A stretch of 64,000 nucleotides of DNA from Microbispora hainanensis (GCF_036186745.1 NZ_CP108086.1:6758001-6822000), one strand, 5' to 3'; counted from the first letter of the stretch, positions 14,276 to 24,876 are shown. Notes: generated by a model from the letters alone, not told the origin. Made by a program: numbers and translations.

Positions 14276-14354
14276 AGGTGAGCCGTTTCTATCCGATCGG
14301 CGGGCCCCGCCACAAGACCGCTACGGTTCATTGGAAGCAGGAAAGGGGATCATC

Positions 14355-15449
14355 GTGAGCAATGCCGAAACGGGTGACGTCCCGTTCGGGGCACGGGTGC
14401 GCGGCTGCCTGCTCGGCGGGGCCGTCGGCGACGCCCTCGGCGCGCCCGTGGAGTTCGACTCGATCGCCGCCATCCGCCGCGACCACGGCGAGGCGGGGCT
14501 GACCGACCTCGCGCCCGACTGGAGCGGCAGGACCGGCCTGGTCACCGACGACACGCAGATGACGCTGTTCACGGTCGAAGGGCTGATCCGCGCCGACGTA
14601 CGCGTCAGGGAGAAGGGCATCGGCGGCGGTGAGGTGCACGTGGTGCGCCACGCCTACCTGCGCTGGCTCGACACCCAGGAGCACCGCCAGCCGCCGCCCG
14701 CCGACGGCCTCGTCCGCACCGGCCGGCTCCGCGAGCAGACCTGGCTCTACTCCCGCCGCGCCCCCGGCAACGCCTGCGTGTCCGGGCTGCGCGCCGGCCT
14801 CGGTTCACTCGCCGCCCCCGGCATGCCCGGTCCGGTCAACCCCGGCTCGAAGGGCTGCGGCACCGTCATGCGCTCCGCCCCCTTCGGGCTGGCCGTACGC
14901 GATCCCCGGGCCGCCTTCACGCTCGCGGCCGGCTGCGCCCAGATCACGCACGGGCACCCCACCGGTTATCTCGCGGCCGGCGCCTTCGCCGCGCTGATCC
15001 GCCTCCTGGCCCAGGGCGCGCCGCTGCCTGCGGCCGTACGGGACACGCTCGGCCTGCTCGCCGAGCAGCCCGCGCACGAGGAGACCACCGCCGCGATCGA
15101 GGCGGCGGTCGCCCTGGCCGGTGCGGCGGAGCCGACGCCCGAGGCGGTGGAGACGCTCGGCGGTGGGTGGGTGGCCGAGGAGGCGCTCGCCATCGCGGTC
15201 TACTGCGCACTGGTGAGCGGCGACGACATCGAGCGGGCCCTGCTGCGGGCGGTCAACCACTCCGGCGACAGCGACTCCACCGGCTCCCTCTGCGGCAACC
15301 TCCTCGGCACCGTGTACGGCGACACCGCCCTTCCCGAGCGCTGGGTGTCGCGGCTGGAGGGCAGGGACACCATCGTCGAACTCGCCGACGACTTCACCAC
15401 CCAGTTCACCGGCGGCCGTCTCGACCACGGCAAGTACCCCGGCTGCTGA
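14355..15449 (+). CDS. ADP-ribosylglycohydrolase (DraG/ARH family)
   Basis: 364 residues, all-alpha di-metal hydrolase that removes ADP-ribose from proteins or small molecules. Metal and substrate motifs are GAVGDALGAPVEF (about residue 21), LVTDDTQMTLFT (about 56) and the C-terminal NHSGDSDSTGSLCGNLLG (about 297). The GTG at 14355 is preferred over a TTG eight codons earlier because AAAGGGG lies six bases before it. The gene diverges from the ROK regulator and shares its operator region, which suggests co-regulation with a sugar locus, but the substrate cannot be read from the sequence. No ADP-ribosyltransferase partner is visible. Confidence 0.88.
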   Translation: MSNAETGDVPFGARVRGCLLGGAVGDALGAPVEFDSIAAIRRDHGEAGLTDLAPDWSGRTGLVTDDTQMTLFTVEGLIRADVRVREKGIGGGEVHVVRHAYLRWLDTQEHRQPPPADGLVRTGRLREQTWLYSRRAPGNACVSGLRAGLGSLAAPGMPGPVNPGSKGCGTVMRSAPFGLAVRDPRAAFTLAAGCAQITHGHPTGYLAAGAFAALIRLLAQGAPLPAAVRDTLGLLAEQPAHEETTAAIEAAVALAGAAEPTPEAVETLGGGWVAEEALAIAVYCALVSGDDIERALLRAVNHSGDSDSTGSLCGNLLGTVYGDTALPERWVSRLEGRDTIVELADDFTTQFTGGRLDHGKYPGC

Positions 15450-15595
15450 CCCCGTGACCACTCACCGTCGGTCTCCCGAGTCGTTCCGTTCCGTTACGAG
15501 CCGCGTGTCATGAAGACATAAGTCCCTTACGGGAGTGTTGACAGATGAACAGGGGCGTTCATGGTGAATAGAGAGCCCTGACCCCCCGGGAGCAC

Positions 15596-18500
15596 ATGAC
15601 GATGCGCAATCCGTTGCGGACGGGAGAATCTCCCGAGAGCACGGCCAGGTCTTCTGAGCGCGACACGTTGCCACATATCGTGGCGGACTTCCGCCGTCAG
15701 GTCGCGCGCAAACTCGGACGAGGCGGCAATCCCGAGGACCAGCTTCGAGCACCGCTCGAGGTAATCCTTCAGCGGCTCGGTACACGGATGGGCCTGCGGG
15801 TCACCCCTTACGGCGAGGTGCCACTGCACGATATCGGGTCACGCCCTGATTATGCCGTTGATGTGGAGCGCTCCAGAGTTGGCTACATAGAGCTGAAAGC
15901 TCCCGGACGCAGCGTTCCCGAATCTCCTACTTGGCGCGCGAGCGAGCGGGAGCGCCGGCAATGCGAGCGACTGCGCGAGCTCCCCAATCTGATTTACAGC
16001 GACGGCACTGACTGGATTCGGTATCAGAACGGCGTCCCCGGCAAGGTCGTCCGGCTGAACGGATCCGATGCGAGCTTGACCGCGTTCGACGCGTTGATCA
16101 GAGAATTTCTACTCTGGGCTCCCGACCCTCCGCGATCGGTTCGCGACCTCATTCGCGTCACCTCAGGACTCTGCCGCCTTCTGCGGGACACCGTCGCGGA
16201 GCTGCTCGAAGCGGAGAGGACTGGCCCGGAGATCGGGCCGTTCACCCACCTCGCGCAGGACTGGCGCGCTCTGCTGTTTCCCGCGCTCTCCAACAACGAA
16301 TTCGCCGACGCATACGCCCAGACAGTCACTTTCAGTCTGCTTCTGGCGCGCGAGGCGGGGATCGACTTCACTGACCACGATCTCGTGCAGATCGCGAAGC
16401 AACTCGGCAAGCAGCACCCATTGCTGGGGAGTGCGCTCAGTCACCTCGCCGAGCCACTCATCGCACAGCAGCTGACGATCCTGGACACGCTCCGTGTCGT
16501 AATCGGCGCCGCCGACTGGAATCGCTTGCCGAAGACAGATCGCACATCGTACTGGGATCTGTACGAGCTCTTTCTGCAGGAGTACGACCCGGAGCTGCGG
16601 AAGAAGAGCGGCGCCTATTACACGCCGGAGCCGGTCGCCCGCTTTATGGTCGACTTCGTCGACCATATTCTGAAGACCCGGATGCGCACGAACGGTTTCG
16701 CGGACAAGAACGTCGTCGCTCTGGACCCTGCGATGGGGACGGGCACGTTCCTCATGGAGATCATCCGATCCGTCGCGGACACGATCGCCGCCGAGGACAA
16801 TGCCCTCGCCGTGCGGGATCATCTCGGCGACCTTTGCCGTTACAGGCTCATCGGCTTCGAGCGCTCAGCTGGCCCTTTCGCCGTGGCGGAACTGCGCCTG
16901 CATCAGACCCTACGGGAGACGTACCGCACTGATATTCCCGAAGATGGCCTTCGGTTCCTCATCGACACTCTGGACGACCCGAACGGCCGCTTCATCGACC
17001 GCGGCCTGGCTTACAACGAGCTCCAGCGAGCGCGGGACCGGGCCAACAAAATCAAACGCGAGACGCCGATCGTGGTAGTCATCGGGAACCCGCCTTATCT
17101 CGAGCGGGCCCGGCAGCAGGACCCCGCCCCTTGGATCGAAAGGCGCCGCGATCCCGGCTACCTCACCGACCTCCGGTTCCGCCCGTCGCTCGACGAGTTC
17201 CGCTTGCCCGAGCACAGCAGGCTCGCCTACAAGCTGGCCAACACCGCGACGTATTTCTGGCGTTGGGCGACGTGGAAGGTCTTCGACGCCAACCCCGAGC
17301 ACCCCGCGGGCATCGTAGCCTTCATCACCACCTCGGCGTATCTGAGCACAGAAGCCTTCGCCGGGATGCGCAAGTACCTGCGGGAGACAACGGACGAAGG
17401 GTGGATCATCGATCTCTCACCCGAACATCATCAGCCGCCGCAATCGACCCGTGTGTTCCGCGGCGTACAACAGCCCATTTGCATCGGCATCTTCGCACGA
17501 TACGGCAGCCCCGACCGGAAGCGACCGGCAACGGTCCATTACACGGCCCTACACGGCAAGCGTGAGGAGAAGTTCGAGGCAATGGCCGCGGGCATCCCCC
17601 TCGACGCGGCCGAACAATGGCAGGAGTGTCCCGCATATCTGACCGCGCCTTTCATGCCAGTCGCCGAAAACTGGCTCTCCCTTCCACCGCTGCTCGAACT
17701 GATGCCCTGGCATGAGCCCGGCGTCAAGGCCAACCGCACATGGGTGTGCGCCCCCTCACCCGAGGTTCTCGAGCGGCGCTGGCGCCGTCTGGTGGCCGAA
17801 GGATTCCCCGACGATCTCTTCAAGCGCACTCGAGATCTGGCGCCGACCTCCCTCGTCGCGGGACTGCCGCCCCTGGCCGACGCGACCGCCCTGCCCAGGA
17901 TCACCCCGTATGCCTTTCGCAGCTTCGACCGTCAGTTCCTTTTCGAGGATCCCAGGGTGATCGACTATCCGCGTCAGCCATTGTGGGACGTCAGGGGAGC
18001 CCGGCAGATCTACGTCAGCACCCAGCACGGACAGCCCTTGTCCTCCGGACCCGGCCTGACCTTCACCGAGAACGTCCCCGATCAGCACCATTTCAACGGC
18101 CGGGGCGGCCGGGTCGTCCCGCTGTATCGGGACCAGCCGGGCGTGAAGCCGAATGTGGCTCCGGGGCTCCTGCAGTACCTCGGCGAGAGACTTGATCGCC
18201 GGCTCACCGCCGAGGACCTGCTCGCCTACATCGCCGGCACCGTTGCGCATCCCGCATACACCGCGCGCTTCCGTGACCAGCTCGCCGCTCTTCATGGAAT
18301 CCGCGTTCCCCTCACGGCTGACGCCCGCCTCTGGGATGCGGCAGCAGAGCTGGGACGAGAGGTGATATGGCTCCACACCTCAGGAACGCGTTTCCAGGAC
18401 GGCGATTCGCCCGGACGACCTCGGCTGTCTGCGGACCGCAGGCCACGACGAGTCTCCTGGATACCGGATGGCGTGGACGATATGCCCGATGAAATCTCTT

Positions 18501-18895
18501 ACGACCCGGCTACGCGAATGCTGCGTCTTGGGAACGGCGTCATCGCGCCGGTCGACCCCCGCGCGTACGCCTACGACGTCGGGGGCAGACCCGTCATCAA
18601 ATCGTGGTTCTCCTATCGGCAGCGAACGCGCCCACGTACGCGCACCGCCTCATCGCCACTGGACGACATACGGAATGAGCGTTGGACCACGCAGTTCACC
18701 GAGGAGCTTCTCGACCTCATTCAGGTCCTGACGCTCCTTGCCGACCTTCATCCGTTACAGGAGGCCCTCCTCGATCGGATCCTCGACGGTCCTCTGATCA
18801 CGACGGCGGATCTCACCGCCGCCCGCCTCCTGCCCGTACCGTCACAGGCGACGAAGGCGCCCCTGCGCTCCGGCCGCGACGACACCCTCTTCTGA
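15596..18895 (+). CDS. single-polypeptide restriction-modification enzyme (type ISP/IIG-like N6-adenine methylase with nuclease)
   Basis: 1099 residues acting on DNA. Residues 25-110 look like a PD-(D/E)xK nuclease: PDYAVDVERSRVGYIELKAP places D85, E99 and K101. A helical spacer follows, then an N6-adenine methyltransferase with motif X/I region GAYYTPEPVARFMVDF and LDPAMGTGTFLMEI (about 378-391) and catalytic motif IV NPPY (about 497-500). From about residue 640 comes a long specificity region like those of type ISP enzymes. It lacks the helicase of classical type ISP enzymes; the next gene codes for one. Starts at 15596 or 15602 are possible (GGGAG upstream). A/T-ending codons are commoner than in neighbours, suggesting transfer. 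Confidence 0.83.
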   Translation: MTMRNPLRTGESPESTARSSERDTLPHIVADFRRQVARKLGRGGNPEDQLRAPLEVILQRLGTRMGLRVTPYGEVPLHDIGSRPDYAVDVERSRVGYIELKAPGRSVPESPTWRASERERRQCERLRELPNLIYSDGTDWIRYQNGVPGKVVRLNGSDASLTAFDALIREFLLWAPDPPRSVRDLIRVTSGLCRLLRDTVAELLEAERTGPEIGPFTHLAQDWRALLFPALSNNEFADAYAQTVTFSLLLAREAGIDFTDHDLVQIAKQLGKQHPLLGSALSHLAEPLIAQQLTILDTLRVVIGAADWNRLPKTDRTSYWDLYELFLQEYDPELRKKSGAYYTPEPVARFMVDFVDHILKTRMRTNGFADKNVVALDPAMGTGTFLMEIIRSVADTIAAEDNALAVRDHLGDLCRYRLIGFERSAGPFAVAELRLHQTLRETYRTDIPEDGLRFLIDTLDDPNGRFIDRGLAYNELQRARDRANKIKRETPIVVVIGNPPYLERARQQDPAPWIERRRDPGYLTDLRFRPSLDEFRLPEHSRLAYKLANTATYFWRWATWKVFDANPEHPAGIVAFITTSAYLSTEAFAGMRKYLRETTDEGWIIDLSPEHHQPPQSTRVFRGVQQPICIGIFARYGSPDRKRPATVHYTALHGKREEKFEAMAAGIPLDAAEQWQECPAYLTAPFMPVAENWLSLPPLLELMPWHEPGVKANRTWVCAPSPEVLERRWRRLVAEGFPDDLFKRTRDLAPTSLVAGLPPLADATALPRITPYAFRSFDRQFLFEDPRVIDYPRQPLWDVRGARQIYVSTQHGQPLSSGPGLTFTENVPDQHHFNGRGGRVVPLYRDQPGVKPNVAPGLLQYLGERLDRRLTAEDLLAYIAGTVAHPAYTARFRDQLAALHGIRVPLTADARLWDAAAELGREVIWLHTSGTRFQDGDSPGRPRLSADRRPRRVSWIPDGVDDMPDEISYDPATRMLRLGNGVIAPVDPRAYAYDVGGRPVIKSWFSYRQRTRPRTRTASSPLDDIRNERWTTQFTEELLDLIQVLTLLADLHPLQEALLDRILDGPLITTADLTAARLLPVPSQATKAPLRSGRDDTLF

Positions 18896-19364
18896 TCAGC
18901 GGAGACAGACGGCGCTGTTACCTGCCGAGGCTCCGATACTCGCGAGGCTTCTGGCGTACATGTTCGACGGTCGGCGGACAGGTCCGCGTCGACGAGGCCG
19001 GGCAACTGGAGTCGGCTCGCACAAACGTGAACAGTGTCTCAAACACTGACAATACGCCGTCCGGCCGATCGCCCGACGACGACCATGCGAGCATGAGCAC
19101 GATCGCCAAGTGTGTGTCAATGGACTCGCGTTTGTGGTGGTAGATCGGCCGTGCTTGAGGCTGTGCCTGCTCATTCGGAAGGCCTGTCATCGATCGGGGC
19201 ACCGGGGTAGTCGCGCCGCCACTGTTTGACCTCATACGAACGATTGACATTTACAGCAGCAAACCGGAATGATCTCGCGGGTTAATAACTCTGGACCGTG
19301 CCATAAGCCAGAGCTCCGAGCGAATCTCCCGCTCCTCCCCGCCGTCGAAGGAGGACGACCTTAC
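18896..19364. other. 469-bp spacer between the methylase and helicase genes
   Basis: No convincing gene is seen on either strand: short open frames here lack ribosome sites and domain-like sequence. The DNA is less GC-rich than the flanks. It contains a small hairpin CAGTGT-CTCAA-ACACTG (19032-19048) and, near its right end, a promoter candidate for the helicase gene. It could be a degenerated coding stretch or a spacer for a small RNA; nothing in it decides. Confidence 0.6.
19244..19273 (+). promoter_or_regulatory. sigma-70-like promoter candidate of the helicase gene
   Basis: TTGACA (19244-19249) is followed after 18 bases by AATGAT (19268-19273, four of six matches to the -10 consensus). 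Transcription would begin near 19280, giving a leader of about 85 bases to the start at 19365. This also argues against the upstream in-frame ATG at 19269. Confidence 0.5.
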
Positions 19365-22300
19365 ATGAGCGTGGCGTCGCGAGCCCGCGATCCCCACCTG
19401 ATCGGCTCCACGACCCGTCTTGTGGAGTTCCTCCACAACCTGGCCTCCGCACGTCGCACCCCGATACGCGAGGTCGACAAGCACGTGCGGGTCCTCTGGC
19501 TGGCGGATCTGCCCGAGGAGATCACGCCCCAGGTCGGGGCAGGACTCGGGGAAGTAGTCCTCTCCTTCGACTACGTGCGGGGCACCCCGCCGCCCCAGGC
19601 TCCCGACGTGCTGGAGGGGTGGCTGAAGCCCCGGGATGTGGCGGATCCCGAGCTGGACGCCCCTGAACTCGCCGAAACCGGACCGAAGCCCGTCCTAGAG
19701 ACTCGCGAGGACGGATCGACGTACTGGCGGCTGGAGACTACGGACGACCGACCCGACGTCTGTGAGGCGTACGACGGGTGGCTGCCCCGCTGGCAGGCTT
19801 GGGCGGAGGAGGAGCGTGAGCGGGCCCGGCGGCAACGCTGGCACCGTGACCTCTACTCGATTGCCAACCAGCTCTCCCAACTCGACGACGAATGGGAGCT
19901 GGTGCTGGCCACCGGCCTGCTGTGCTGGAGGGCGCCGGATGGGACGGGGGTGCGCAACCACCTCCTCGCCACCCGTGCTCATCTGCGGGTCGACCCGGAC
20001 ACCGAACGCGTAGATGTCGTGCTCGGCGAGACCTCGCCGACGCTTCAGGACCGTGAGTTTCTAGCCGACCTGCCCGGGTTCACCCCACAGCGCGTCGACC
20101 GGCTGCGGGAGCGGACCCGGGAGGGCGAAGGCGTCGCCCTGCAGGACTCCGTCGAGGAACTTCTGCAGGCCTGGTGCGACCGGGGACTGGATACGCAGGC
20201 TCATTACCGGCCCGGCTGGGTTCCCGTGACGGCAAAGCCCGGCGATGTCCCAGAGGTACGGCTCGCCCCCGCCCTGGTCCTCCGCAAGCGGGACCAGGGC
20301 GCGCTGATCGCCTACTACGACCGGATGATCGCCACGTTGACCGCCCCGGACGCTCAGGCGCCCCTTGGGCTCGCCCAGCTCGTGCAGCCACTCGAGCAGG
20401 ACGAGCGCATGGCGTTCCTCACGGAACGGGACGGTGACCGTGGAGACGCCCTCGGGCGCGACCCGCTCTTCCCGCTGCCCGCCAACCCCGAACAGCGTCT
20501 CATCATGACCCGGCTGGGCAACGACAACGGCGTCGTCGTGCAGGGCCCGCCGGGGACCGGCAAGACCCACAGCATCGCGAACCTGCTGGCGGCGCTTCTC
20601 GCGCAGGGGCAGCGCGTCCTGGTGACGAGTCAGAAGGCACAGGCACTGCGGGTGCTGCGCGACAAGCTGCCCGAAGAGATCGCCGGCCTCTGCGTGTCCA
20701 TGACCGACCTCGGCCGTGGTGGTTCCGCCGAACTGGAGGGCGGCGTGAAAGCGCTGTCGGCCAGGTTCTCCTCTTACGACCCAGGGCGGCAGGCCAAACG
20801 CATCGCCGCCAAGCGCCAGGAACTCGACGCAGCGCGCCGTACCACCGCCGAATTGGCCGAGCGGGTTCGTGCACTTCGCGAATCAGAGACCTACTCCCAT
20901 CCCGAGATCGCTTCCGGGTATCGGGGTTCCCTCGCCGCGATCGCCCGCCGTCTCAGGAACGAGGAGCCGGGCTGCTCATGGATGCCGGTGCCAATGCCGG
21001 CCACGGCCCCGTTCACGCCGCCGATCAACGTGGGCGAGGCGGCGGAGCTCGTCGAGCTGCTGGCAGGTGAGACATCGCAGCGCAGGGCCAGACCGACCCA
21101 GCGCATCCCCGGCGTCGGCATGCTGCCTACCGCCGAACAGGTGAAAGCCCTGATCGCTGACGAGGCCGCCGCACAGTCCCTGGCCCGGCAGGCGCAGACA
21201 CAGGTCTCCGCCCGGCTCGATTACCTCGACCCGGAGCTGGTCACGCAGCTACAGAAGATCGCGGCCGACGTCGCCGCAGACTTACACCAACTCGGCCTGC
21301 CCGAGGATGCTGCCACGTGGAACCCCGGCGACTGGACGATCCGGGCCCTGTCCGACATGCTCGCGGGCCGCGATGCCATGCTGTGGGAGCAGCTCGCGAC
21401 CTACGCCGAACGGCTCGCCGCGCTGGAGGAGACGACCCGGCGCATCGCGTTGCGTGAGGTCGTCCACCCGCCACTCGACGGCCCCACCAACGCCGCGGCG
21501 TACCTGCAGGCGATGCGCGGGTTGCGCGACCACCTCGCCGCGGGGAACCGGCTCAAGCAGGGCCTGTTCCGGCCCGCCGTACAGAAGGTCGCGGAGCCCT
21601 TCCTCGCCTCCGTATCCGTCGACGGCGTCTCGCCGACGAACGCCGAACTGCTGTCGATCGTCCTCGACGACCTGGAAGGGCGGCAGATCGCCGATCAGTT
21701 GCGGCGCGGCTGGCGCCTCGTGGGCGTGGAGTTTTCGTCGGACCTGGCGCTGCAAGCCATACAGTCGCAGCTCCGCGACGCCTTCAGCAGGCTTTCCGTC
21801 GTGCGCCGGATCGCGGAAGCCGTCTCGGAGACGATCCGCCTTCTTGCCGGGGCAGGCGTGCACCTCGGTCTGCGTACCCCCGCCGAGTGGCTCTCCTACG
21901 CCTCCGCCCTGCACGCCGTGCGGCTGCGGCTGGACGCGGAGCGGGCTACCGCGAAGCTGGAGGAGCTGCACAGCACTCTGGACCACCAGGTGCGGCTCGG
22001 CACCCCCGCCCCGGAGCTGACTGAAGCCGTCCGAGCGGTCGCCGCCCGCGATGGCGTCACCTATCAGCTGTGCCTGGCCGCCCTCGGCACTGCTCACCGG
22101 GAGCTGGCCGACCAGCGACGCTGCGACGAGCTGACGGCACGGGTGCGGGCCGCCCACCCCGCTCTCCTGGCCATGCTGGCGGAGGCGAAGACGTGGCGGT
22201 CCCGCTTCTCGAACTGGGAGCGCGCCTGGGCCTGGGCTAAGGCCCAGACCTTCTTCACCGAGCAGCGGCAGCCGGGTCTCGAACAGCGGCTGGACGCCGA

Positions 22301-24098
22301 GCTCGAAGCCGCGACCGTCCGCGAGATGCGTCTCACCGGCGAGCTGGCCGCCGAGCAAGCGTGGGACGCGGCCCTGGGACGGATGAACTCACGGCAGACG
22401 ACCGCGCTGCGCGCCTACCAGGACCACATTTCCAAGCTCGGCAAGGGGACCGGCAGGTACGCCGCGAGATACCAGATGCTCGCCCGGGAGGCCATGGCGC
22501 ACGCTCGTGACGCCGTACCGGCCTGGATCATGCCGATTCAGCAGGTGCTGGAGACGATTCCGCCGGCGCGCGACTCTTTTGACGTCGTCATCGTGGACGA
22601 GGCCAGCCAGGCGAGCATCGAGGCGTTGTTCCTCCTGTGGCTGGCTCCCCGCGTCATCGTGGTCGGTGACGACAAGCAGTGCGCTCCCTCCACGGTGAGC
22701 CACGGAGAGCTGGAGCCGATCTTCGCCAAGCTGGCCACCTACCTGCCGGACATGCCCGCCTATCTGCGGGACGCCTTCACTCCGAAGTCGAGCCTGTTCG
22801 ACTTGCTGCGGACGCGTTTTGGCGGGCTCGTGCGTCTCAAGGAGCACTTCCGGTGCATGCCCGAAATCATCCAGTTCTCGTCCCGCCAGTTCTACTCGGA
22901 TGAGCCGCTGGTTCCGCTCCGGCAGTTCGGCGCCGACCGGCTGCCGCCGCTTCGGGTCCAGCGCGTCACCGGCGCGCGCACAGAGGGGACAACGACACGG
23001 CTCCGCAACGTAGTGGAGGCCGAGGCGATCGTTGAGCGGATCATTCAGTGCGCCGAGGACCCGGCGTACGAAGACAGGACCTTCGGTGTCGTCGTCCTGC
23101 AGGGCAACGGCCAGGTCCATCTGATCCACAACCTGCTGCTCGATCAACTCGATCCCAAGGAGTGGGAGAAGCGGCGGCTGCGGGTCGGCACGCCGCCCGA
23201 CTTCCAGGGCGATGAGCGCGACGTCGTCTTCCTCTCGATGGTGATCGCGGAACGGCGGTCGGCGGTGACCAGCACCGAGTGGCAGCGGCGGTTCAACGTG
23301 GCGGCCTCCCGCGCGAAGGACCAGATGTGGCTGTTCCACTCCGTCAGCCCTGACCTGCTGTCCCCTGTCTGTTTGCGGCGGTCCCTGCTCGCCTACATGC
23401 TGAACCCGCCGCCGGCCCTCGGACGGGAGCCGCTCTCCGACGTGACCCCCGACGAGCCTCACCGCGATTTCGACTCGCTCTTTGAGCAGCGGGTGTTCCT
23501 GCGCATACGGGAACGCGGCTATCACGTGGTCCCGCAGTACGAGGTCAACGGACGGCGAATCGACCTGGTCGTCAGCGGAGCCCAAGGACGCCTGGCAGTC
23601 GAGTGCGACGGCGACCGCTGGCACGGCACGCCCGAGCAGCTCGAGAACGACCTCGACCGGGAACGGGAACTGAAGCGAGCGGGCTGGCAGTTCTGGCGGG
23701 TGCGCGAGAGCGAGTTTTACTTCGACCAGGAGGCGGCGCTCGCGCCCCTCTGGGCCGAACTTGACCGGCGCGGCATTCGGCCGGGTGAGGTCGATGCCGA
23801 CGACGAGGCACAGCAGGACGAGAGCTGGAGTGCCGTGACCCTTTCGGCGCAGGACGGCTGGGACGGCCTCGACGACGGCGACTCACCTGACCTTGAAGAG
23901 ATCACCCTCGCCGTGCCGCCCAAGACTCATCCTGGCATCATGAACCCCGGACCGATGACTGCACGCATGACGGCCACTACCCCGTCAAGTTCCCATATCC
24001 GCGCCTGGGCTCGTCAGCATGGCTACGCGGTCGGCGATCGCGGGCGCCTTCCGGAGGACGTGCAGGAGGCGTACCACCGGGCGCACCAGCCCGAGTAA
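19365..24098 (+). CDS. SF1 helicase-nuclease with C-terminal Lsr2-like DNA-binding domain
   Basis: 1577 residues, predicted defence protein. Residues 1-380 are an uncharacterised N-terminal region; Walker A GPPGTGKTHS is at about 393-402; a helical/coiled insert (480-1040) precedes Walker B VIVDEASQAS (about 1075) and the UvrD-like block TEWQRRFNVAASRAKDQMWL (about 1310). A Vsr/DUF559-like nuclease follows (about 1370-1465) with RIDLVV, LAVECDGDRWH and RERELKRAGWQFWRV. After an acidic linker the last residues, IRAWARQHGYAVGDRGRLP and on to the end, match the Lsr2 C-terminal domain including its RGR minor-groove motif. Start 19365 has GAAGGAGG upstream. It follows a restriction-modification gene and precedes a tightly linked kinase-like gene. 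The Lsr2 fusion is not one I know from described systems. Confidence 0.88.
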   Translation: MSVASRARDPHLIGSTTRLVEFLHNLASARRTPIREVDKHVRVLWLADLPEEITPQVGAGLGEVVLSFDYVRGTPPPQAPDVLEGWLKPRDVADPELDAPELAETGPKPVLETREDGSTYWRLETTDDRPDVCEAYDGWLPRWQAWAEEERERARRQRWHRDLYSIANQLSQLDDEWELVLATGLLCWRAPDGTGVRNHLLATRAHLRVDPDTERVDVVLGETSPTLQDREFLADLPGFTPQRVDRLRERTREGEGVALQDSVEELLQAWCDRGLDTQAHYRPGWVPVTAKPGDVPEVRLAPALVLRKRDQGALIAYYDRMIATLTAPDAQAPLGLAQLVQPLEQDERMAFLTERDGDRGDALGRDPLFPLPANPEQRLIMTRLGNDNGVVVQGPPGTGKTHSIANLLAALLAQGQRVLVTSQKAQALRVLRDKLPEEIAGLCVSMTDLGRGGSAELEGGVKALSARFSSYDPGRQAKRIAAKRQELDAARRTTAELAERVRALRESETYSHPEIASGYRGSLAAIARRLRNEEPGCSWMPVPMPATAPFTPPINVGEAAELVELLAGETSQRRARPTQRIPGVGMLPTAEQVKALIADEAAAQSLARQAQTQVSARLDYLDPELVTQLQKIAADVAADLHQLGLPEDAATWNPGDWTIRALSDMLAGRDAMLWEQLATYAERLAALEETTRRIALREVVHPPLDGPTNAAAYLQAMRGLRDHLAAGNRLKQGLFRPAVQKVAEPFLASVSVDGVSPTNAELLSIVLDDLEGRQIADQLRRGWRLVGVEFSSDLALQAIQSQLRDAFSRLSVVRRIAEAVSETIRLLAGAGVHLGLRTPAEWLSYASALHAVRLRLDAERATAKLEELHSTLDHQVRLGTPAPELTEAVRAVAARDGVTYQLCLAALGTAHRELADQRRCDELTARVRAAHPALLAMLAEAKTWRSRFSNWERAWAWAKAQTFFTEQRQPGLEQRLDAELEAATVREMRLTGELAAEQAWDAALGRMNSRQTTALRAYQDHISKLGKGTGRYAARYQMLAREAMAHARDAVPAWIMPIQQVLETIPPARDSFDVVIVDEASQASIEALFLLWLAPRVIVVGDDKQCAPSTVSHGELEPIFAKLATYLPDMPAYLRDAFTPKSSLFDLLRTRFGGLVRLKEHFRCMPEIIQFSSRQFYSDEPLVPLRQFGADRLPPLRVQRVTGARTEGTTTRLRNVVEAEAIVERIIQCAEDPAYEDRTFGVVVLQGNGQVHLIHNLLLDQLDPKEWEKRRLRVGTPPDFQGDERDVVFLSMVIAERRSAVTSTEWQRRFNVAASRAKDQMWLFHSVSPDLLSPVCLRRSLLAYMLNPPPALGREPLSDVTPDEPHRDFDSLFEQRVFLRIRERGYHVVPQYEVNGRRIDLVVSGAQGRLAVECDGDRWHGTPEQLENDLDRERELKRAGWQFWRVRESEFYFDQEAALAPLWAELDRRGIRPGEVDADDEAQQDESWSAVTLSAQDGWDGLDDGDSPDLEEITLAVPPKTHPGIMNPGPMTARMTATTPSSSHIRAWARQHGYAVGDRGRLPEDVQEAYHRAHQPE

Positions 24099-24105
24099 GG
24101 ACCAC

Positions 24106-24876
24106 ATGAGCGAGGAGCGGCGTCTTCCCGGCGGGAACACGAACGGCGCGGTCCGGGCCGGTGACACGGTGCGCCGTGCTCCCGGTCCGTGGACGCCTGC
24201 CGTGCACGCGCTGCTCCGGCATCTGGAGGAGGCCGGCTTCGACAGTGCCCCGCGTGCCCGGGGGTTCGACGACCAGGGCCGGGAGGTCCTCTCGTACCTG
24301 CCGGGAGAGGTGGTGGGGACGGCGCGGCCGTGGCCCGCGTGGGTGCACAGTGACGACGCGCTCCGTCAGGTGGCCGGCTGGCTGCGTGACTTCCACGCCG
24401 CGGTCGCGGACTTCGTCCCCCCGCCGGACGCGGTCTGGCGCGGGGGCGGGACCTGGCGGCCCGGCCTGGTCGTCGGCCACAACGACGCGGCGCCGTACAA
24501 CGCGGCGTGGGCCGGCGGGCGCCTCACCGGGTTCTTCGACTGGGACTTCGCCGGTCCGGTCACCCGCGAGTGGGACCTCGCCTTCGCCGCGTTCTCCTGG
24601 GTGCCGCTCCACGCCCGCCACGTCGCCGCCGCGGATGGGTTCACCGCGTTCGCCGACCGGCCCCGGCGGCTGCGGCTGTTCCTCGATGAGTACGGCTGGG
24701 ACGGCCCGGCCGGCCGTTTCGTCGAGACCGTCCGGCAGCGGATCGGCGCCTCGGCCGACGGCATCCGGCGGCTCGCGGCGGCCGGCGACCCGGCGTACCG
24801 GAAGCTGGTCGACCAGGGGGCCGACAGGTCATTGGACACGGCGGTCGAGGAGCTGGCCGGCTTCGCCGCGGGGTGA
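24106..24876 (+). CDS. aminoglycoside-phosphotransferase-like kinase
   Basis: 256 residues of the APH/choline-kinase fold. The catalytic loop reads GHNDAAPYNAAW (Brenner HxDxxxxN form) and the metal-binding motif FFDWDFAGP; the N-lobe is short and its nucleotide loop hard to place. The start lies seven bases beyond the helicase stop and its AAGGA ribosome site overlaps that stop, so the two are co-translated. Such proteins phosphorylate antibiotics, sugars or other small molecules; no substrate is evident. It may be an unrelated passenger or a third member of the defence operon. Confidence 0.82.
   Translation: MSEERRLPGGNTNGAVRAGDTVRRAPGPWTPAVHALLRHLEEAGFDSAPRARGFDDQGREVLSYLPGEVVGTARPWPAWVHSDDALRQVAGWLRDFHAAVADFVPPPDAVWRGGGTWRPGLVVGHNDAAPYNAAWAGGRLTGFFDWDFAGPVTREWDLAFAAFSWVPLHARHVAAADGFTAFADRPRRLRLFLDEYGWDGPAGRFVETVRQRIGASADGIRRLAAAGDPAYRKLVDQGADRSLDTAVEELAGFAAG

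Follow-up and report, generated by a model that had tools for sequence, protein, structure and literature searches.

Whether three consecutive genes on one strand of the chromosome of a soil actinobacterium, Microbispora, act as a single defence system is the question raised by a 64,000-nucleotide stretch of that 8.8-Mb chromosome (GCF_036186745.1 NZ_CP108086.1:6758001-6822000; the window, whose positions are used throughout). Gene 1 encodes a 1099-residue restriction-modification protein, gene 2 a 1577-residue helicase-nuclease with an Lsr2-type tail, and the third gene a kinase-like protein of the APH family (Table 1). An earlier interpretation made from the nucleotide sequence alone (the sequence-only reading) had joined the three into one multi-gene system, and the open reading frames (ORFs) themselves were present at or near where it had placed them. 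We consider it likely, instead, that genes 1 and 2 are two independent, horizontally acquired defence-type genes that share a small exchange site flanked by resident metabolic genes, with the APH gene as a bystander. The proposed three-gene system is thereby set aside as false, and the boundaries of the true units are established.

The extent of the acquired DNA was delineated by blastn comparison with three other Microbispora genomes (G002, G003 and G008). All three were collinear with the window up to position 15454, just 3′ of the ADP-ribosylglycohydrolase stop codon, and again from 24107, at the APH start. Between these points they carried 1.2-2.2 kb of DNA unrelated to the window segment. 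Because the relatives are collinear on both sides with other DNA between, the segment from 15455 to 24106 is taken as the acquired or replaced unit. GC content at third codon positions (GC3) was 0.77 for gene 1 and 0.85 for gene 2, as compared with 0.92-0.97 for the five neighbouring genes measured, and by this measure both large genes look imported, gene 1 more so. Low GC3 and replacement at a syntenic site together support horizontal acquisition of both genes, in agreement with the transfer that the sequence-only reading had suggested from less GC-biased base use in the methylase and the following spacer.

The APH gene lies outside this segment. Orthologues with 88-89% identity were found in four Microbispora genomes (the three above and G009), all without genes 1 and 2, and in the three collinear genomes the same left flank stands beside it. 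Its start follows the gene 2 stop codon by about 10 nt, which makes co-transcription in this strain likely and could favour a three-gene defence system with the APH-like protein as a kinase partner of the Pgl/BREX kind. The tight junction is, however, explained by the acquired segment ending at about 24106 rather than by operon design. Outside Microbispora hainanensis, no APH relative was detectable by tblastn at gene 2 loci; the APH gene had no PADLOC match, and a Pgl/BREX scan restricted to the three genes gave a marginal PglX methylase-domain match and no PglZ. The conservation of the three-gene neighbourhood across genomes, which the sequence-only reading had put forward as a check, was looked for and not found. 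Residency of the APH gene and the lack of a detectable relative at gene 2 loci outside M. hainanensis refute a conserved three-gene unit, and we regard a three-gene system as very improbable; on this comparative evidence, the APH-like gene is a resident bystander.

The relationship between the two large genes can be addressed through the 469-bp spacer that separates them (18896-19364), which contains a promoter-like site of gene 2. Both hexamers of this site are identical in the window, in M. hainanensis (L039; the closest named relative of the window, a sister species with 93% identity at gene 2) and in G013, a Microbispora genome that has gene 2 at another locus and no gene 1 homologue. DNA homology between G013 and the window covers positions 19241-24093: it begins 3 bp before the TTGACA hexamer and stops at the end of gene 2, although the G013 copy is degenerate (a 75-codon deletion and a TAG codon). 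As judged from the shared promoter-like site and the limits of this block, gene 2 is a transcription unit of its own that travels without gene 1. The genome collection yielded 34 gene 2 loci, and a gene 1 homologue was encoded in the DNA available at only one of them, that of M. hainanensis; about 10 kb was available on both flanks in 13 of the other 33, some of which had little flank. Homologues of gene 2 were found in 9 of 42 genomes with a gene 1 homologue and in 9 of 42 without one. Two observations weigh against complete independence. The pair is kept in M. hainanensis, although this may reflect one inheritance, and 2 of 37 gene 1 homologue loci (L081 in genome G184 and L082 in G154) include a tail-less cousin of gene 2 at a distance of up to about 10 kb. 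Loose clustering of type IIG genes with such cousins thus exists in two other genomes and leaves some room for a functional link between genes 1 and 2. The sequence-only reading had stated that its system would fall if homologues of the large genes never co-occurred; this was nearly the case, the exception being these distant cousins.

These linked loci are an argument for a two-gene, methylation-dependent system, in which gene 1 would mark self (and cut) and gene 2 would degrade DNA that is unmodified or has been cleaved by gene 1. Such a system would also account for same-strand adjacency in two species with a conserved spacer, and 2 linked cases in 37 exceed chance by our estimate, which takes full-length cousins to be present in about 15% of genomes. 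In G184 and G154 a PDC-S48 DEDDh exonuclease gene lies between or beside the two genes; a third locus (L080 in G169), with a weak helicase match only, also combines a type IIG gene with this exonuclease. Yet orientation and gene order differ among the IIG-linked loci, and therefore island clustering, which is common for unrelated defence systems, fits better than an operon. Enzymes of the TaqII type act alone (PMC5587805), and this, together with the G013 copy and the equal frequencies of gene 2 homologues, makes a two-gene system unlikely. A different possibility is that gene 2 is a host repair or replication helicase-nuclease similar to DNA2 or Smubp-2 and has no part in defence. Its superfamily 1 (SF1) core of the UPF1/DNA2 type would suit such a role, but the gene is patchy (3 of 15 Microbispora species, one with the degenerate copy), sits in a replaced segment with low GC3, has homologues that adjoin GmrSD, PglZ and SNF2 genes, and has a core similar to those of PDC-S37, ProA and Hhe; we consider a repair function quite unlikely. 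Two independent, acquired defence-type genes remain the preferred explanation, and the identity of each is consistent with it.

Gene 1 is, by homology and motif content, a stand-alone type IIG enzyme and a member of the known TaqII/TaqIII kind. It matched the PADLOC model REase_MTase_IIG (PDLC03631) with an E value of 9e-274, its Pfam domains were N6_Mtase and Type_ISP_C (E 3e-69), and no helicase domain was found in the Pfam search. Like other IIG enzymes of the TaqII/TaqIII kind, it has nuclease, N6-adenine methylase and specificity functions, in that order, in one helicase-less chain of ~1000-1150 aa. Alignment over 1092 aa, essentially the full length, showed 36.5% identity to TaqIII, a characterised IIG enzyme and the 1101-aa protein of plasmid p11 of Thermus aquaticus YT-1; TaqII has 1105 aa and is encoded on plasmid p61. 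In an alignment of 39 sequences that included both Taq enzymes, the nuclease motif was conserved, with E99 invariant, and so were both methyltransferase motifs. TaqIII, from an 11-kb plasmid, methylates adenine (m6A) on one strand, cleaves 11/9 nucleotides downstream and has an ISP-like specificity domain (PMC5587805). Type ISP enzymes such as LlaGI and LlaBIII share the specificity domain and methylase fold with gene 1, but they are 1406-1578 aa long and carry in the same polypeptide the helicase motor, coupled by translocation to cutting, that gene 1 lacks; many plasmid-borne homologues of gene 1 are annotated as "type ISP restriction/modification enzyme". The sequence-only reading was thus correct in describing a nuclease-methylase-specificity protein without helicase, whereas its premise that type ISP functions had been split, with the helicase moved to a second protein, is unnecessary because the TaqII/TaqIII group has no helicase.

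By homology to TaqII and TaqIII, gene 1 would recognise a short asymmetric site, methylation of adenine on one strand would protect the host, and unmodified DNA would be cut at a fixed distance downstream with no need for a helicase. Prediction of the site from TaqII contact residues gave a clear result at position 3 only, where His831 specifies C in TaqII/TaqIII. Most other base-contact positions differ from those of the Taq enzymes and carry residues not interpreted in the TaqII/TaqIII paper (PMC5587805); the recognition sequence is probably another one. Gene 1 also differs from this Thermus family (type IIC/IIG/IIL) in being chromosomal and in having a mesophilic host. Homologues are common (45 of 299 family genomes), and phage records gave distant methylase-domain matches only. 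Both large genes are under purifying selection, with ratios of nonsynonymous to synonymous substitution (dN/dS) between the window and M. hainanensis of 0.21 for gene 1 and 0.18 for gene 2.

Gene 2 can be read as a 1609-aa ORF from 19269, but a 1-bp deletion in M. hainanensis directly before the ATG at 19365 breaks the reading frame of the 31 codons that precede it. This rules out the longer ORF, and the true start is therefore ATG 19365, in line with the 1577 residues given by the sequence-only reading. The domains named by that reading, helicase (here assigned to SF1), nuclease and Lsr2, were all found by Pfam in the resulting protein. Nuclease residues D1432, E1445, D1447 and H1452 (numbered on the 1609-aa ORF, P0002) were kept in 36-38 of 38 aligned sequences, and these residues, Walker A and the DEAS motif are common, at the same 36-38 of 38, to relatives from actinobacteria to planctomycetes. 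SF1 motifs and nuclease residues place gene 2 in the MTES_1575/Vsr SF1 family, and it shares its helicase core and nuclease with the large SF-I helicase-Vsr proteins PDC-S37, Hhe and ProA. It is not an equivalog of Hhe (131 bits against an NCBIfam cut-off of 2000) or of ProA (184 against 1500), and it differs from this group in having an Lsr2 tail in place of a winged helix-turn-helix or DUF3320 domain; no HEPN or transglutaminase domain was detected in it. A PDB fold search with an AlphaFold2 model of its N-terminal domain gave no match at E <= 0.001. By its domain content, gene 2 belongs to a known helicase-nuclease kind, of which it is a variant ending in a xenogeneic-silencer tail; this tailed protein is the one unusual part of the locus. 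It would act as a separately transcribed, ATP-driven helicase of the UPF1/DNA2-like type joined to a Vsr-like nuclease, and would attack invading DNA most likely without reference to methylation.

How gene 2 might recognise such DNA is suggested by its tail, which has the DNA-binding domain and RGR motif of the silencer Lsr2 but is fused to a helicase-nuclease, with no Lsr2 oligomerisation domain detected. The RGR motif of Lsr2 itself enters the minor groove of AT-rich DNA and is suited to genomes of low AT content (PMC4466236). Because of this property, we infer that gene 2 may dock on AT-rich invading DNA, which would look foreign in a genome of 71% GC, and then unwind and cut it. The RGR residues were invariant in seven aligned tailed copies (the window and six relatives) despite a hypervariable linker, and the tail probably guides gene 2 towards AT-rich DNA. 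Two findings argue the other way. The close relatives L049 and L043 have no Lsr2 tail, and the tail is thus not essential to the gene 2 family; dN/dS for the C-terminal 71 residues, a stretch that includes the hypervariable linker, was 0.65. Three further loci (L141, L047 and L050) have versions of the tail without RGR, L041 and L128 also end without an Lsr2 tail, although near a contig end, and cousins outside this group are either tailed differently or followed by a conserved 271-aa partner. A tentative extension, possible but rather doubtful at present, is that gene 2 works as a one-protein restriction factor in which base composition, not methylation, separates foreign from self, and that family members can exchange their C-terminal recognition module, be it an Lsr2 tail with RGR, a degenerate Lsr2-like tail, a different tail or the separate 271-aa partner. 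If this is true, a helicase-nuclease with a silencer domain would destroy DNA by composition, a self/non-self rule distinct from that of restriction-modification, and the rule would explain how one protein could protect a high-GC actinobacterium. A literature search for Lsr2-tailed helicases found no paper.

Table 1. Features of the locus and of the corresponding interval in relatives (window positions unless a locus is named)
Feature	Position	Strand	Basis or remark
ADP-ribosylglycohydrolase gene, resident left flank	14331..15449	+	Pfam PF03747, E 2e-77; syntenic in relatives without the segment
Acquired segment, inserted or replaced	15455..24106	.	Between resident ADP-ribosylglycohydrolase and APH genes; blastn synteny
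Gene 1, type IIG single-chain restriction-modification enzyme, TaqII/TaqIII-like, with ISP-like specificity domain, 1099 aa	15596..18895	+	
PD-(D/E)xK nuclease motif, PD84-85 ... E99-L-K101	15845..15898	+	Aligned in homologues including TaqII/TaqIII
Methyltransferase motif I, DPAMGTG (377-383)	16724..16744	+	Near-invariant in 39 rows
Methyltransferase motif IV, NPPY (498-501)	17087..17098	+	Conserved in the same alignment
Target-recognition domain, Type_ISP_C	17696..18718	+	Pfam PF18135, residues 701-1041
Promoter-like site of gene 2, TTGACA-18-AATGAT	19244..19273	+	1 found against 0.2 expected
Gene 2, SF1 helicase - MTES_1575 nuclease - Lsr2 tail protein, 1577 aa	19365..24098	+	Pfam domains; start from indel
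N-terminal domain, ~360 residues	19365..20513	+	AlphaFold2 mean pLDDT (model confidence) 89
Walker A, GPPGTGK	20544..20564	+	Invariant in 38 homologues
MTES_1575 (Vsr-like) nuclease domain	23481..23762	+	Pfam PF18741, E 3e-31
Lsr2 DNA-binding tail; RGR motif at 24039-24047	23982..24083	+	Pfam PF23359, E 2e-13
APH-family gene, resident neighbour outside the acquired unit	24109..24876	+	Pfam APH, E 4e-11; ATG 24109
Alternative occupants of the interval in Microbispora relatives	L123:7762-9860; L124:7036-9204; L122:9877-11080		

The ADP-ribosylglycohydrolase-APH interval is variable in Microbispora. It holds the type IIG and helicase-nuclease genes in two species, a Schlafen-group-3 (SLFN-g3) helicase in two others and remnants in a fifth. 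The SLFN-g3 helicase of G002 and G008 has 629 aa (Pfam E 7e-85) and is similar to PDC-S41, and the G003 interval contains remnants of such a helicase and other sequence. The site offers a small defence hotspot worth mining.

Neighbourhoods of gene 2 relatives showed further arrangements. Tail-less relatives are followed directly by the conserved protein of about 271 aa at five loci (L152:12611-13426, L153:12575-13417, L154:12616-13431, L129:684-1490 and L142:5895-6698), and the pair looks like an undescribed two-gene unit. The one copy of this partner tested had no Pfam or PADLOC match; its C-terminus carries RN(L/F)VHP, reminiscent of HEPN domains. In a deltaproteobacterial metagenome-assembled genome (L061:1497-16848), a gene 2 homologue stands downstream of a large NPPY-motif protein and between a gene of the SNF2-helicase cluster and a PglZ gene, a BREX-like setting. 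An Actinopolymorpha homologue (L046:10010-17421) is immediately followed by a GmrSD-RAMA type IV gene, and at five Gordonia loci (L051:2506-9773) the homologue overlaps a ResIII-type helicase gene.

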